Assembly: GCA_000620545.1 (NCBI GenBank)
Contig: JIBA01000014.1
Span: 62,001-126,000 of the forward strand
Length of the DNA: 64,000 bases
From: Intrasporangiaceae bacterium URHB0013
GTDB taxonomy: Bacteria > Actinomycetota > Actinomycetes > Actinomycetales > Dermatophilaceae
Direction of reading: 5' to 3'
In this document: in pieces, positions 43,773 through 58,187 of the stretch
Position numbering within the stretch: position 1 is the stretch's first letter
Layout of the letters: every line of letters starts with the position of its first letter
The notes under the pieces: model-generated
Databases searched by the model: none
Told to the model about the DNA's origin: nothing
Seen by the model: only the letters and a program-made list of their open reading frames with translations
Position numbers and translations under genes: made by a program

Positions 43773-44516
43773 CTACTGGCGGAAGCGCGCGATGGTGAGG
43801 CCGACGAGGCGGGCGACGACGAGCGCGACGTAGAGCATGCCGGCGATCTGCTGGAGCAGCACGAAGGCTCGTGCGTGGGGCTCAACGGCGATGATGTCGG
43901 ACAGGCCCGTCGAGGTCATCGTCGTGATCGAGAGGTAGAGCAGCTCGAACCAGGTTCGGGTGCCCGGGTCGGCCTCGCCGTAGATCGTGAACGAGTTCGG
44001 CCACAGCAGCTGCACGGCCACATAGAGGTAGGCGAAGCCCCACGCGACGACGGTGAACGTCGCCCCGGTCGCGTAGAGCTCGTCGCGGGTCACCCAGTTG
44101 TCGGCGAACATGTACCGCAGCAGGCCGTAGCCCGTGTAGAAGTAGAAGAGCGCATGCAGCAGGGCGCTCCAGAACGCGACGACGTCGTTGGTCGGCCACA
44201 CCGCCTCGGCGATCGTCAGGAGCACGACAGGGCCGCCGAGCACCGCCGCGACCCACGTCAGGGCCGGCGTCGCACGGACGGCACGGACCGCGAGGAAGAG
44301 CACGAGCAGGCCGATGAGGCCGAAGATCGCCCGGCCGGTCTCGCGGACGTCACCTGCGCGGGTCTCGATGAACGGGTAGGCGAGAAGGGCCCCGAGCTGG
44401 GCGAAGAGCAGCAGAGCGCACGGCAGCTCGTTGACCTTGCGGCGCAACCTGTCCATCCGCGAGGGGGGCCCCGCACGACGGGGCGATGACGGCCAGAGCT
44501 CCAACGACGCACTCAC
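43773..44516 (-). CDS. Potassium-channel-like membrane protein with altered filter
   Basis: Protein of 247 aa with about six membrane segments. The last pair flanks a pore loop WFELLYLSITTMTSTGLSDIIAVEP (filter about 201-207, STGLSD in place of TVGYGD). This is the Ion_trans_2 layout found in small bacterial K+ channels, but the filter lacks the second Gly-Tyr. Ion selectivity may therefore differ (inference). There is no RCK or cyclic-nucleotide domain. Start is GTG 44516, 7 nt after TAGAGT; more upstream frame lacks signals. Confidence 0.8.
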   Translation of the reverse strand: MSASLELWPSSPRRAGPPSRMDRLRRKVNELPCALLLFAQLGALLAYPFIETRAGDVRETGRAIFGLIGLLVLFLAVRAVRATPALTWVAAVLGGPVVLLTIAEAVWPTNDVVAFWSALLHALFYFYTGYGLLRYMFADNWVTRDELYATGATFTVVAWGFAYLYVAVQLLWPNSFTIYGEADPGTRTWFELLYLSITTMTSTGLSDIIAVEPHARAFVLLQQIAGMLYVALVVARLVGLTIARFRQ

Positions 44517-44529
44517 GTATCGGACTCTA
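44517..44529 (-). promoter_or_regulatory. Putative -10 box and leaderless start (channel gene)
   Basis: On the minus strand, TAGAGT (44524-44529), 7 nt, then GTG 44516. No Shine-Dalgarno. Confidence 0.5.
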
Positions 44530-44561
44530 GTGGCGACCCCGCCATGAACGGTCACTCACCC

Positions 44562-44845
44562 GTCGAGAGGCCAAAGTCTGCGGCTCCCTCACCGTCCAAA
44601 GGCCAAAGTCTGCGGCTCGCTCACCGTCGAAAGGCCAAAGTCTGCGGCCTGCTCAGCGTCGAGAGGCCAAACCCTGCGGCTCCCTCACTGTCGAGAGGCC
44701 AAAGTTTGTGGCCTGCTCACCGTCGAGAGGCCACAGTTCGTGGCCGGCTGTCGAGCGAACTGTGGCCTTTCGACGCTTCAGGGATCGCGAACTTTGGCCT
44801 TTCGACGGTTGAAGGACCGCGAACTTTGGCCTCTCGACGGTTGGG
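44562..44845. repeat. 32-bp tandem repeat block, six direct and three inverted units
   Basis: Units of exactly 32 bp begin with GTCGAGAGGCCAAAGT at 44562, 44594, 44626, 44658, 44690 and 44722 (the last truncated). Three inverted units follow (44757, 44789, 44821) carrying ACTTTGGCCTTTCGAC. At the junction, GTCGAGAGGCCACAGTTCG and CGAACTGTGGCCTTTCGAC can pair over 19 bp with one G-T mismatch. The block fills the 335-bp gap between ftsK and the channel gene. It has no variable spacers and no coding potential. Confidence 0.92.
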
Positions 44846-44851
44846 AGGGGG

Positions 44852-47782
44852 TCAGTAGCGCTCGCGGCCGCCGCGGTCGGTGAGGTTCCAGGCGTCCTCG
44901 GACTCCTCGTCGTCCTCGTCGACCGTGCGGGTCATGTCTCCGGGCGTCCACCGAGCCGTCGGCACCGCCGTCGTCTCGTCCTGGCCCAGGCGCTGCTCGC
45001 CACGCTCGGCGACGAGCGAGGCCGTGCGCTGCGGCGCGACCTCCGGCTCCTCGGCGTAACCGGCCGAGACCTCCGGCGGCTCCACGTCGACGGGCGGAGC
45101 GGCATACGGCTGGGCGGGCTCGATGAGGTCGGACAGGCCGTCGGCGTCGACGGGCTCGTTCGGGTGCGGCACGTCGTCACCGCGCAGCAGCGCGAGGGTC
45201 TGCTCGAGGTCGTCAGGGCGCACGAGCACGTCGCGGGCCTTGGACCCCTCGCTCGGTCCGACGACACCGCGCGACTCGAGCAGGTCCATGAGCCGGCCGG
45301 CCTTGGCGAAGCCGACGCGCAGCTTGCGCTGGAGCATCGAGGTCGAGCCGAACTGCGTCGTGACGACGAGCTCGGTCGCCTGGAGCAGCACGTCGAGGTC
45401 GTCGCCGATGTCGTCGTCGATCTGCTTCTTGGGCGCCGCGACGGTGACGTTCTCGACGTAGTTGGGCTTGAGCTGGGTCGTGACGAACTTGACGACCTCG
45501 TGGATCTCGGACTCGTTGACCCACGCGCCCTGCACACGCATCGGCTTGCTCGCACCCATCGGCAGGAAGAGGGCGTCACCCTGGCCGATGAGCTTCTCGG
45601 CGCCGGGCTGGTCGAGGACGACGCGACTGTCGGCGAGGCTGGACGTCGCGAACGCCATGCGCGAGGGCACGTTGGCCTTGATGAGGCCGGTGACGACGTC
45701 GACCGATGGTCGCTGCGTCGCGAGGACGAGGTGGATCCCGGCGGCGCGCGCGAGCTGCGTGATGCGCACGACCGACTCCTCGACGTCGCGCGGGGCGACC
45801 ATCATGAGGTCTGCGAGCTCGTCGACGACGACGAGGAGGTAGGGGTAGGTCGTGATCTGACGCTCGGAGCCGGGCAACGGCTTGACCTTGCCGGCGCGGA
45901 CCGCCTTGTTGAAGTCGTCGACGTGCTTGAAACCGAACGCCGCGAGGTCGTCGTAGCGCTGGTCCATCTCCTTGACGACCCACGCGAGCGCCTCGGCGGC
46001 CTTTTTCGGGTTGGTGATGATCGGGGTGATGAGGTGCGGGATGCCTTCGTATGCCGTGAGCTCGACGCGCTTCGGGTCCACGAGGATCATCCGGACCTCC
46101 TCAGGCGTCGAGCGCATGAGGATCGAGGTGATCATCGAGTTGACGAAGCTGGACTTGCCCGAGCCGGTGGCGCCCGCGACGAGCAGGTGGGGCATCTTCG
46201 CGAGGTTGGCGATGACGTACGCGCCCTCGACGTCCTTGCCGACACCCATGACCATCGGGTGCTCGTTGCTGCGGGCCGTGTGGCTGCGCAGGACGTCGCC
46301 GAGCGCAACGTTCTCGCGGTCGAGGTTCGGGATCTCGATCCCGATGGCGGACTTGCCCGGGATGGGGCTGAGGATGCGGACGTCGGCGGAGGCGACGGCA
46401 TACGCGATGTTCTTGGAGAGGGCGGTGACGCGCTCGACCTTCGTGCCGGATCCGAGCTCGACCTCGTAGCGCGTCACGGTGGGGCCGCGGGTGAATCCGG
46501 TGACGGCGGCGTCGATGTCGAACTGGTCGAAGACGCCGGTGAGCGACTCGACGACGCGGTCGTTGGTCTCGCTGCGCGTCTTGTGCGGGGCGCCGGGGGT
46601 CAGCATCGCGTGGTCGGGCAGGCGGTAGGTGATGTCGCCGCCGAGGCTGAGCTGCTCGACCCGGGCCGGCAGCTCCGACATGGGCGGCGGGATGAGCTCG
46701 GCCTTGGGCCCGACCCTGCTCGTGTCGGGCGCACCGAGCGTCTTCGGGTCGGTGGCGTCGATGACCTTCTCGCCCTTCTCGCCGCCGGGCCGCGGGGCCA
46801 GCAGGCCGGGGGGCGTCGGGCGCTTCTCGCCCGGGCGTGGGCGCGCCGCACCCTCGTCCTCGAGCGCCTTCTGGGCCGCCTGACGGAAGGCCTCGTCACC
46901 GTCACGGTCGGCGAGGTCGACCGGCTTGCGGCGCGCGCGCTTCACGGCGGCCGCCGGGGCGTCGTCGGCCTCGTGCGTCTGGTCTGCCTCGTCGTGGTGG
47001 CCACGGTCGATGACGAGGGCGCGGAGCTGGCGCATCCGGGTCGGGATCATGTTGACCGGCGTCGCCGTGATGACGAGCAGGCCGAAGAGGCCGAGCAGGA
47101 CGAGCAGGACGAGTGCACCGTAGGTGGAGACGGCCGCGGCAAGCGGGCTGGACGCGAGGAAGCCGAGGATGCCGCCGGCGGCTCGCATGCCGTCGGCGCC
47201 GTCGGGCGGGTTGGGGATCCCGTCGGCGATGTGCGCCAGACCGCACGCCGCAAAGGTCAGCGCGATCGTGCCGACGACGATGCGGTTGGTGGACGCGTCG
47301 TCCTGGGGGGCTCGCAGCATGCGAAGGCCGAGGGCGAGCAGGACCAGCGGGACCGCATACGCGACGCGCCCGAAGGTGCCGGCGAAGACGGCGTGCACGA
47401 TCTGGCCGAACGTGCCCGAGACGCCCCACCACTCACGGGCAGCCACGACGACGGCGAGGGCGAGGAGGGCGAAGCCGATGCCGTCGCGGCGGTGCTCGGG
47501 CTCGAGGTCGGCGGCGCTGTGGCCCACGCGACGCACGGCTCCCCCGGCCATGTGCGAGACGCCCATCCACGTGTTGCGCATCGCGCCGAGCGGAAAGGGA
47601 AGGCCTCCACCCCGGGTCTTGGACGCGGCCTTGGCAGCCGGTTTGCGGGCCGCGGGCTTGCGCTGCGCAGGCCGCGTGGAGCGAGCCGCCGGCGGGCGCG
47701 ACGATGCGCCGCCCGAGGACCCCTTGGCGCGGGTGGCCGCTGCGGTGCTCGAGCGTTGGCTGCTGGACGGACGTGACGCCAT
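44852..47782 (-). CDS. ftsK: DNA translocase FtsK/SpoIIIE
   Basis: Septal DNA pump resolving chromosomes at division (976 aa). An Ala/Arg/Lys-rich cytoplasmic N-terminus (about 1-65) precedes four membrane helices (about 100-265) and a charged linker. The motor domain contains Walker A AGATGSGKS, LVDPKRVELTAYEGIPHL and VVDELADLMM. A gamma winged helix (STSMLQRKLRVGFAKAGRLMDLLESRG) would recognise orientation motifs. Start ATG 47782 gives MASRPSSSQRSS; an upstream ATG adds 14 residues of no clear family match. The 3' end abuts the 32-bp repeat block. Confidence 0.95.
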   Translation of the reverse strand: MASRPSSSQRSSTAAATRAKGSSGGASSRPPAARSTRPAQRKPAARKPAAKAASKTRGGGLPFPLGAMRNTWMGVSHMAGGAVRRVGHSAADLEPEHRRDGIGFALLALAVVVAAREWWGVSGTFGQIVHAVFAGTFGRVAYAVPLVLLALGLRMLRAPQDDASTNRIVVGTIALTFAACGLAHIADGIPNPPDGADGMRAAGGILGFLASSPLAAAVSTYGALVLLVLLGLFGLLVITATPVNMIPTRMRQLRALVIDRGHHDEADQTHEADDAPAAAVKRARRKPVDLADRDGDEAFRQAAQKALEDEGAARPRPGEKRPTPPGLLAPRPGGEKGEKVIDATDPKTLGAPDTSRVGPKAELIPPPMSELPARVEQLSLGGDITYRLPDHAMLTPGAPHKTRSETNDRVVESLTGVFDQFDIDAAVTGFTRGPTVTRYEVELGSGTKVERVTALSKNIAYAVASADVRILSPIPGKSAIGIEIPNLDRENVALGDVLRSHTARSNEHPMVMGVGKDVEGAYVIANLAKMPHLLVAGATGSGKSSFVNSMITSILMRSTPEEVRMILVDPKRVELTAYEGIPHLITPIITNPKKAAEALAWVVKEMDQRYDDLAAFGFKHVDDFNKAVRAGKVKPLPGSERQITTYPYLLVVVDELADLMMVAPRDVEESVVRITQLARAAGIHLVLATQRPSVDVVTGLIKANVPSRMAFATSSLADSRVVLDQPGAEKLIGQGDALFLPMGASKPMRVQGAWVNESEIHEVVKFVTTQLKPNYVENVTVAAPKKQIDDDIGDDLDVLLQATELVVTTQFGSTSMLQRKLRVGFAKAGRLMDLLESRGVVGPSEGSKARDVLVRPDDLEQTLALLRGDDVPHPNEPVDADGLSDLIEPAQPYAAPPVDVEPPEVSAGYAEEPEVAPQRTASLVAERGEQRLGQDETTAVPTARWTPGDMTRTVDEDDEESEDAWNLTDRGGRERY

Positions 47783-47922
47783 GCTGGCACCGTACGTCAA
47801 CGCACCGCTGAACTCACGCGTCACACGCGCAACACCGCCGATCGGTCTGGTGGGTCGAAGCCGCTGGTGACGACACCCCGAGGGGTCTGCGTCTCAGATC
47901 GCGACATCCGCGGACCGTGCGG

Positions 47923-55012: not shown

Positions 55013-55045
55013 GATCCGCAGCCTAACGCCGGCCACCGACCGTGC

Positions 55046-55135
55046 CGGCCCAAGCCGCGCCGGCACACGCCCCGTCGGCACACGCCCCGTCGGCACACGC
55101 CCCGCCGTCACACGCCGCGCCGGCACAGGCCGCGC
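55046..55135. repeat. 15-bp tandem repeat upstream of thyA
   Basis: Six 15-bp units, three nearly identical to CGGCACACGCCCCGT (55061, 55076, 55091) with diverged copies on both sides. They lie in the 216-bp gap between paaE and thyA. The length is a multiple of three, which keeps a false N-terminal frame open. Confidence 0.85.
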
Positions 55136-55228
55136 CGGTCCGAGAGCGCCTTGCTCGTGTGCAGGGAGCGCCCCCGTCAAGCCACGGCTGCGCACCGACC
55201 GCGTCAGGGACGCGCGGCAGGCCGGAGG

Positions 55229-57786: not shown

Positions 57787-58187
57787 AGGTACTCGACATC
57801 CTCAGGCACGTCGTAGAAGGTCGGGTGCCGGTAGATCTTGTCGCCCGCCGGGTCGAAGAACGAGTCCTTCTCGGAGGGGCTGCTCGCGGTGACGTCGTCG
57901 GCCTTGACGACCCAGATCGAGACGCCCTCCTGTCGCCGGGTGTAGACGTCGCGGGCATTACGCAGGGCGAGCACGGCGTCGGGCGCGTGGAGCGAACCGA
58001 CGTGCACGTGGGAGAGTCCGCGCTTTCCGCGCACGAAGACCTCCCAGAGCGGCCAGCTGCGCTCGCCCCCAACGGGCTGGGCGGGCTGGGCGGGCTGGGC
58101 GGGCTGGGCGGGCTGGGCGGGCTGGGCAGGCTGGGCAGGCTCGGACGCGCCCCCGGCACCAGGCGACGGGGTGGTGGGTCCGCTCAC
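57783..58187 (-). CDS. paaB: Phenylacetyl-CoA epoxidase subunit PaaB with AQP-repeat N-terminus
   Basis: Small bridging subunit of the epoxidase. The conserved part begins [41 protein letters not shown] (from about residue 46) and ends [13 protein letters not shown]. The first 45 residues hold seven AQP repeats absent from typical PaaB (about 95 aa). Start is GTG 58187, overlapping the paaA stop (GTGA). A start after the repeats is possible but there is no clear ribosome site there. Confidence 0.93.
58074..58136. repeat. 9-bp tandem repeat inside paaB
   Basis: Seven consecutive 9-bp units of GGGCTGGGC (six identical, one A-for-G change), encoding (AQP)7 on the minus strand. Unit length is a multiple of three, so changes in copy number would not break the frame. 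Confidence 0.92.

Follow-up and report, generated by a model that had tools for sequence, protein, structure and literature searches.

For the palindromes dispersed through bacterial genomes, a single candidate maker is well described, namely the RAYT transposase. RAYT genes are described as being bracketed by two inverted REP sequences with which they coevolve, and their presence tracks REP numbers (PMC2817692). Some repeat families are described without a maker, e.g., the CGTC-tagged REPs (CGTC-1 to -4), for which no dedicated transposase is known; these form inverted dimers behind genes and are reported from five phyla, of which Actinobacteria is not one (PMC3733652). Long covarying hairpins behind genes are also described as the intrinsic terminators of GC-rich actinobacteria, and in Streptomyces a low U content after the terminator hairpin is usual (PMC12207403).

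Here, we describe a 32-bp repeat block in the window (the whole stretch of 64,000 nucleotides that was analyzed). This block belongs to a set of about 35 arrays (a lower bound) that a GTCGA-tagged repeat family forms in a Terrabacter-like genome of 4.57 Mb (G000). Like the REP/BIME-RAYT systems (PMC2817692), the family consists of dispersed, short extragenic repeats in inverted pairs and arrays, an enzyme gene is bracketed by two inverted cognate repeats, repeat abundance tracks the gene, and repeat and enzyme coevolve. Unlike those systems, the putative enzyme is AbiEi/DUF559-like rather than a Y1 (HUH) transposase (IS200/IS605 type), an outer unit taken singly is no palindrome, the arrays mostly converge at a near-fixed 32-bp step, and the tag is GTCGA.

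Architecture and range of the repeat family

The initial annotation had described six direct 32-bp units followed by three inverted ones, with a 19-bp hairpin at the junction, and both features were recovered at 44562-44838 (Table 1). The direct-unit cores begin at 44562, 44594, 44626, 44658, 44690, and 44722, i.e., in exact 32-nt steps, and Tandem Repeats Finder resolved the block into two repeats, one of 5.7 copies with a score of 245 and one of 2.8 copies with a score of 136. The 19 positions of the hairpin comprise 18 Watson-Crick pairs and one G-T pair (plus strand). On both strands, RNA of the block folds far below shuffled energies (z scores of -9.5 and -8.7; 0 of 100 shuffles in each case). 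The statement that the block lacks ORFs holds in substance, since it contains a single mechanical ORF of 104 aa. An Rfam search of the block gave only sub-threshold mir-552 matches, on which ground a known RNA family was rejected. A canonical intrinsic terminator was likewise rejected, as positions 44300-45100 contain 0 terminator-like sites (a hairpin plus a U-tract). In contrast to CRISPR arrays, with their unique spacers between identical repeats, the 20 variable nucleotides of these units show 65% identity inside one arm, and the orientation of the units flips midway. Two other short-period tandem repeats occur in the window, at 55027-55138 (15 bp x 7.4) and 58073-58141 (9 bp x 7.7).

The block had been placed just after ftsK, and it does lie at the 3' end of that gene; the correction is that ftsK is on the minus strand, with its stop at 44852 and 13 nt between stop and array. 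The block is thus 3' of ftsK and upstream of an ion-channel gene on the same strand, the two genes being codirectional. By eye, the ion-channel gene may be leaderless, with TAGAGT 7 nt ahead of its GTG start (window 44500-44530).

Table 1. Features of the repeat block, its neighboring genes, and the gene at the greA site
Feature	Position	Strand	Remarks
Direct arm, six 32-bp units	44562..44753	+	Core GTCGARAGGCCAAAGTTCG-like plus 13-nt spacer; last unit enters junction loop
Inverted arm, three units	44756..44838	-	Cores 44756-44774, 44788-44806, 44820-44838; abuts ftsK stop codon, in sense with ftsK
Central hairpin	44722..44774		Arms 44722-44740 and 44756-44774, 15-nt loop
ftsK (FtsK_SpoIIIE, alpha and gamma domains)	44852..47824	-	Start uncertain (47581 or 47824); array at its 3' end
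Ion-channel gene (Ion_trans_2)	43773..44516	-	5' end faces array
greA-site gene, 329 aa, putative endonuclease	G000:C14:228163-229149		Between greA and mut-like gene; >>>>>> on one side, <<<<<<< on the other

A 21-mer core allowing up to 3 mismatches gave 178 matches in the own genome and 0 for a reversed-pattern control, so the block is not a product of chance. With blastn, the whole block gave 104 matches in the own genome, which merged into at least 35 places; 40 of 71 candidates were scored, and the genome may contain further ones. The exact core is also present in named records of Terrabacter tumescens, Terrabacter sp. Ter38, Terrabacter sp. Root85, and one metagenome bin. Tandem GTCGARNGGCCA pairs were found in 15 of 149 sampled genomes of the family, representing 7 of 53 genera (control, 0), and among 396 sampled genomes of the order in the own genome only. 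The initial annotation had proposed searching the genome and its relatives for the unit, with absence elsewhere in the genome, together with a lack of RNA 3' ends or protein binding at the block, counting against its readings; many copies were found, and its suggestion of an interspersed repeat of the genus proved correct and, in fact, understated.

In total, 84 arrays were scored from 30 loci of the own genome and 50 loci of relatives, the latter being a sample of 40 from among the matches listed and ten from the ftsK search rather than a full census. Of these arrays, 56 converge (>>><<<), 24 run one way, 3 read <>, and 1 reads ><><. Same-strand steps measure exactly 32 nt in 269 of 298 cases, with a unit skipped in 3 of the 298, and converging centers are spaced by 22 nt (two 19-nt arms plus a 3-nt loop) in 37 of 58. 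In the own genome, GTCGA is intact in 233 of 244 units and GGCCA in 235 of 244, with variable spacers; these conservation figures are biased because the units were found via that motif, a bias that affects the small number of skipped units less. Outer units retain only GTCGARWGGCCA. Because only a 12-mer stays constant, the protein-binding array that had been offered as one possibility is plausible. Shorter unit spacing was rejected, as the exact 12-mer shows no periods of 13 to 25 nt in 12 genomes.

The family resembles the CGTC-tagged REPs in its inverted dimers behind genes and in that no dedicated transposase is known for it. REPs end in a GTAG or CGTC tag, and the units here may carry the latter: of the 244 units of G000, 215 have a C before GTCGA, which spells CGTC, and 24 of 37 units of G069 have a C before GTC. 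However, no stem follows inside the unit, whereas the CGTC REPs are described with stems of 8 to 9 bp inside each unit, and tandem steps dominate here, whereas head-to-tail dimers are reported as negligible there (PMC3733652).

Gene ends and the central hairpin

A gene 3' end adjoins 80 of the arrays, and in 79 of these the stop codon is no more than 50 nt away (median, 10.5). For the 83 arrays flanked by two called genes (1 of the 84 has no called gene on one side), 52 gaps are convergent, 28 codirectional, and 3 divergent, compared with 11, 26, and 12, respectively, of 49 comparison gaps in the window; these orientations rest on a simple in-house gene caller. One-way arrays are in sense with the adjoining gene in 18 of 23 cases. 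The three divergent-gap arrays are one orthologous site. It adjoins an alpha/beta-hydrolase gene that has inward arrays on either side (L029:3946-5361 in the own genome, L056 in G005, and L067 in G008); one array lies in the divergent gap, the sole such site in the set, and that side is conserved in three species.

For the multi-hairpin terminator that the initial annotation had considered, position and structure fit, but the block has no U-tract signal. Compared with the actinobacterial terminators mentioned above, the family has a motif common to unrelated loci, tandem arms, and only some 35 arrays in one genome. By eye, a strong hairpin with a ACAGAAGGACCCCGAC stem (L020:3905-3960) adjoins a one-way array, and arrays and ordinary terminators may therefore share one gap. 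In unit orientation, the spacers are C-rich and G-poor, with a skew of 0.53 in G000 versus 0.06 in its array-free downstream regions and of 0.33 in G005, 0.37 in G007, 0.16 in G008, and 0.58 in G069. Such spacers would suit Rho, and the arrays may additionally act as bidirectional 3' ends. The C bias may also reflect descent and not function, because the direct arm in the window, which has no gene ending into it, shares it.

Several of these observations would follow if the arrays were host elements kept for a role at gene ends, as bidirectional terminators or protectors of mRNA 3' ends, with the genome-wide copies due to selection. The position directly behind stop codons, spacers with the composition of Rho loading sites, array positions common to several species, and the covariation of the central stem described below all agree with such a role. 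The missing U-tract hairpin at the block, the C bias of a direct arm into which no gene ends, and the lack of any element behind ftsK in six of ten relatives do not; the gene-linked evidence on this alternative is taken up in the next section.

Across 31 array centers (30 distinct), 97.4% of cells are paired versus 85.2% after shuffling, and the covariation score is 0.343 versus 0.104 (0 of 500 shuffles), a signal that is destroyed by sliding. As part of the stem is fixed by the search pattern, the free stem positions are the most informative, and 234 of 248 of these are Watson-Crick pairs versus 142 with partners shuffled. For the apical 7 positions, 47 centers that had been selected on motif and spacing gave 269 matches out of 329, versus 173 when shuffled and 195 when shuffled within genomes. 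Orthologous centers show 45 compensated pair changes, 75 one-sided changes, and 17 others, in genome comparisons that are not independent. The idea that selection acts on one giant in-register hairpin was rejected for the outer units, since only the central pair exceeds background: the rank 0 pair has an identity of 0.749, compared with 0.477 when arms of other arrays in that genome are paired, and ranks 1 to 4 are without excess. In folding, outer 32-mers gain little or nothing over their shuffles in G000, G005, G007, and G008 (mean z scores of -0.45, -0.07, -0.40, and 0.36) and gain somewhat in G069 (-1.53). The center is thus a maintained hairpin, and the outer units are not.

The last result bears on membership in a classical REP/BIME family whose RAYT either went undetected or has been lost recently. 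REPs are 20- to 40-bp units that are themselves stem-loops; here, the array center is a hairpin and the outer units, with a mean z of -0.45 in G000, are not palindromic. The copy number (178 core matches), the extragenic position behind genes (79 of 80 arrays), and the inverted pairing are as in REPs (PMC3733652), but the same source nowhere mentions Actinobacteria. A search for the Y1 (HUH) transposase (Y1_Tnp, PF01797) gave no match in 17 genomes, while 5 of 14 control genomes were positive. A classical RAYT was consequently rejected as the partner, and we regard this origin as highly improbable. A search of mostly open-access literature for REPs and RAYTs in Actinobacteria found nothing, which is weak evidence.

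A different account dispenses with any trans-acting factor: the palindromes would be perfected by replication template switching, multiplied by slippage, and tolerated in 3' intergenic gaps. The loops of the 31 centers come as reverse-complement pairs (TCA in 9, TGA in 6, CGA in 7, and TCG in 5), which is the mark of spacer inversion, and G-U intermediates are rare in the central stems. Replication template switching is described as both creating and mending stems (PMC8794818), and given these loops and the rarity of G-U pairs, it can account for some of the covariation with no need to invoke selection. The number of units also varies at one orthologous site, with 12 (7 plus 5) in the own genome, 5 in G005, 4 in G008, and a bare hairpin of 2 in G004. 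Mutation alone, however, would not keep GTCGA and GGCCA at the frequencies given above while neighboring bases drift, and it leaves unexplained why cognate repeats stand on both sides of one gene family (see below). We therefore hold this account to be improbable, although less so than a missed RAYT.

Many array sites are old and common to several species. In the gap behind ftsK, one hairpin is present in G006, arrays in G007 and G069, and one half of a hairpin in G004, while six of the ten relatives carry nothing; G005 and G008 lack an element there even though the greA-site gene described below is present. By eye, no target-site duplication of the kind typical of insertion sequences and MITEs was seen in the ftsK gaps, and no fresh insertion was demonstrated. 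In the 20 variable nucleotides, identity is 65% within one arm and 49% to other loci of the same genome, while across genomes it is 47% for orthologous and 40% for non-orthologous arms. Vertical descent of single units was rejected on this basis (0.472 for orthologous arms versus 0.492 for other loci of the same genome). These identities indicate that genomes homogenize their repeats.

Nuclease-like genes bracketed by inverted repeats

In the own genome, a gene lying between greA and a mut-like gene is bracketed by arrays that point inward (Table 1). The mut-like gene is present in 12 of 12 relatives searched. Gene and inward arrays occur together at the greA-mut site in G000, G005, G006, G007, G008, and G069, while in G001, G003, G004, G105, G058, and G024 the gene and the GTCGARNGGCCA arrays are both absent and greA follows directly; the site is unreadable in G002 owing to a contig edge. 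Variant palindromes of the GTCGAGTGCCCA and ATCGAAAAGGCAG types are found in the gap without the gene at L105 (G105) and L108 (G024), respectively. Genome-wide, the number of tandem matches tracks the gene, with 146 (own genome), 58, 57, 64, 26, and 187 in the six genomes with it and 0, 1, 6, 0, 8, and 6 in the six without it, i.e., 26 to 187 versus 0 to 8 for this one repeat family. Three array-bearing genomes outside the comparison are unscored or speak against the relation: G002 (36 matches; 74% complete) and G059 (24 matches; 58% complete), in neither of which a homolog was found, and G034 (21 matches), with only a 39% homolog, which is bracketed by a similar repeat. Also outside the comparison, G094 has 7 tandem matches and G080 has 2.

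Homologs of the greA-site protein gave a match in 128 of 149 genomes of the family (E up to 0.001). We read 70 homolog loci, the 30 top-ranked and 40 from further down the list, as a sample and not a full census, and scored 62 of them, omitting 8 that were short or cut by a contig end. Palindromes or tandem arrays are present in the flanks; many of them bear a GTCGA or ATCGA tag, and their sequences differ between homologs. An inverted repeat across the gene exceeded the control 99th percentile (15) in 48 of 62 homologs and the control maximum (16) in 45 of 62, the control being 237 random genes from 20 of the homolog genomes. Within those 20 genomes, 22 of 27 homologs pass, and a smaller control of 151 genes likewise gave 48 of 62. 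When repeats on one flank are added, 52 of 62 homologs pass, versus 7 of 237 controls; 4 of the 14 homologs without an inverted repeat across the gene are among those passing by the one-flank test. The bracketing of an enzyme gene by inverted cognate repeats, as known from RAYTs, is therefore seen here with a different putative enzyme. GTCGA or its complement is present in 35 of 48 matched segments, compared with 866 of 3,100 random 46-mers, although segment lengths vary.

Repeats are shared mainly between similar proteins. Among pairs of loci without common outer flanks, to which the comparison was confined, a shared repeat was found in 35 of 1,656 pairs below 50% protein identity, 7 of 109 at 50 to 55%, 8 of 37 at 55 to 60%, 3 of 8 at 60 to 70%, and 2 of 2 above that. 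Protein identity and flank-repeat similarity are correlated (Mantel r, 0.24; 0 of 2,000 permutations). For the homologs on G024:C2 and G094:C245, the matched part lies 82 nt from arrays that the motif search had found independently, which represent one of 5 (G024) and one of 3 (G094) array places in these genomes.

Evidence for the dispersal of repeat families other than the greA-site one is thin. When random 20-kb stretches were sampled, a further copy, in palindromic form, was detected for 3 of 22 cognate repeats, and the G030 copy is directly behind a stop codon (by eye); four cognate repeats scored 17 to 18 in another genome's sample. The sensitivity of this resampling is low, as the G069 family escaped it despite its known dispersal. 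A second homolog in the own genome (G000b; L140:1247-2646, C14 near 110 kb) is bracketed by GTCGAGTGCCCACTTCCCGAC arrays with a 32-bp step. No copy of this second family (GTCGAGTGCCCA) was found away from its gene in the 312 kb searched, where the sole additional match to its 12-mer, at L042:4264, proved to belong to the first family, as a degenerate unit. A third homolog type, seen at L141 (own genome) and L126 (G001), has GTCGAGTGGTCACTCCCGCAC-like arrays on one side only, with a step of about 42 nt.

The proposed partner is a putative endonuclease that, judging from profile matches, appears to have an AbiEi-like region joined to a nuclease domain of the Vsr/DUF559 type. Among 38 homologs, the C-terminal part matches REase_MTES_1575 in 26 and DUF559 in 19 (E up to 1), with one homolog, L125, above the Pfam cut-off for DUF559. 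AbiEi is the antitoxin and transcription regulator of the AbiE system, and PADLOC models of it match up to 22 of the 38 homologs; the greA-site protein itself is matched with an E value of 0.00043, and it has no match in Pfam or NCBIfam. The resemblance to Vsr-like/DUF559 endonucleases of known structure is weak: a profile search of the PDB gave as best match the endonuclease-like 3hrl (E = 0.0053), followed by a ribosomal protein (0.031) that is surely a chance match, and the mobile intron protein 3r3p at 0.14, with unrelated chance matches ranking in between. The nuclease assignment of the greA-site protein is made from the domains of its homologs and the weak match to 3hrl. Across the 38 homologs, E244 is invariant and D233 is present in at least 90%. 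The AlphaFold model has no usable fold (pLDDT, 29), and a search of viral contigs confirmed no relatives of the protein.

AbiEi autoregulates through inverted repeats. If the arrays are host elements, the copies flanking the nuclease-like genes could be operators of autoregulated AbiEi-like proteins. In 48 of 62 homologs, however, the repeats stand on both sides of the gene and not upstream alone, and the number of arrays follows the greA-site gene, so that the host-element explanation as a whole, although better placed than mutation without a partner, appears unlikely to us.

A candidate nuclease-repeat partnership

The reading we prefer is a partnership similar to that of REPs and RAYTs, with an enzyme of another superfamily: an AbiEi-DUF559-like nuclease would recognize its own repeats and propagate or maintain them, and gene ends would tolerate or use them. 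We hold this reading to be somewhat more likely than not. It is proposed because the gene family shows bracketing by and coevolution with its repeats and because one member shows abundance tracking. The data establish this association, and binding, cutting, and copying by the protein are inferred.

In outline, the basic element is a hairpin of the form GTCGARAGGCCA-NNNNTCG-loop-CGANNNN-TGGCCTYTCGAC directly behind a stop codon, which tandem duplication in 32-bp steps would turn into converging arrays. The putative endonuclease, whose gene lies elsewhere in the genome between inward copies of this repeat, would be the trans-acting partner. It would bind the conserved motif and nick or cut there, and would thereby copy, amplify, or homogenize the repeats. 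Gene 3' ends would be the sites where insertions are tolerated, and the hairpins perhaps also serve there as bidirectional 3' ends. Our search of mostly open-access literature found no report of DUF559 proteins with inverted or dispersed repeats, and this too is weak evidence.

A broader proposal, which we advance tentatively and with somewhat less than even odds, is that of an independent second invention, in which a large family of actinobacterial AbiEi-DUF559-like endonucleases, each specific for its bracketing palindrome, spread and rewrite it at gene 3' ends across the whole chromosome. If this is true, the transcript ends of many genes would be shaped by a chromosomally resident nuclease acting on palindromes that are mostly GTCGA-tagged. 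A common nuclease-type gene family with its own repeat on either side, one of these repeats at least being dispersed in more than 100 copies at gene ends, would provide orphan repeats with a maker of a second kind. Repeat spread would become directly testable in a soil genus, and a function would be suggested for proteins known only as DUF559- or AbiEi-like.
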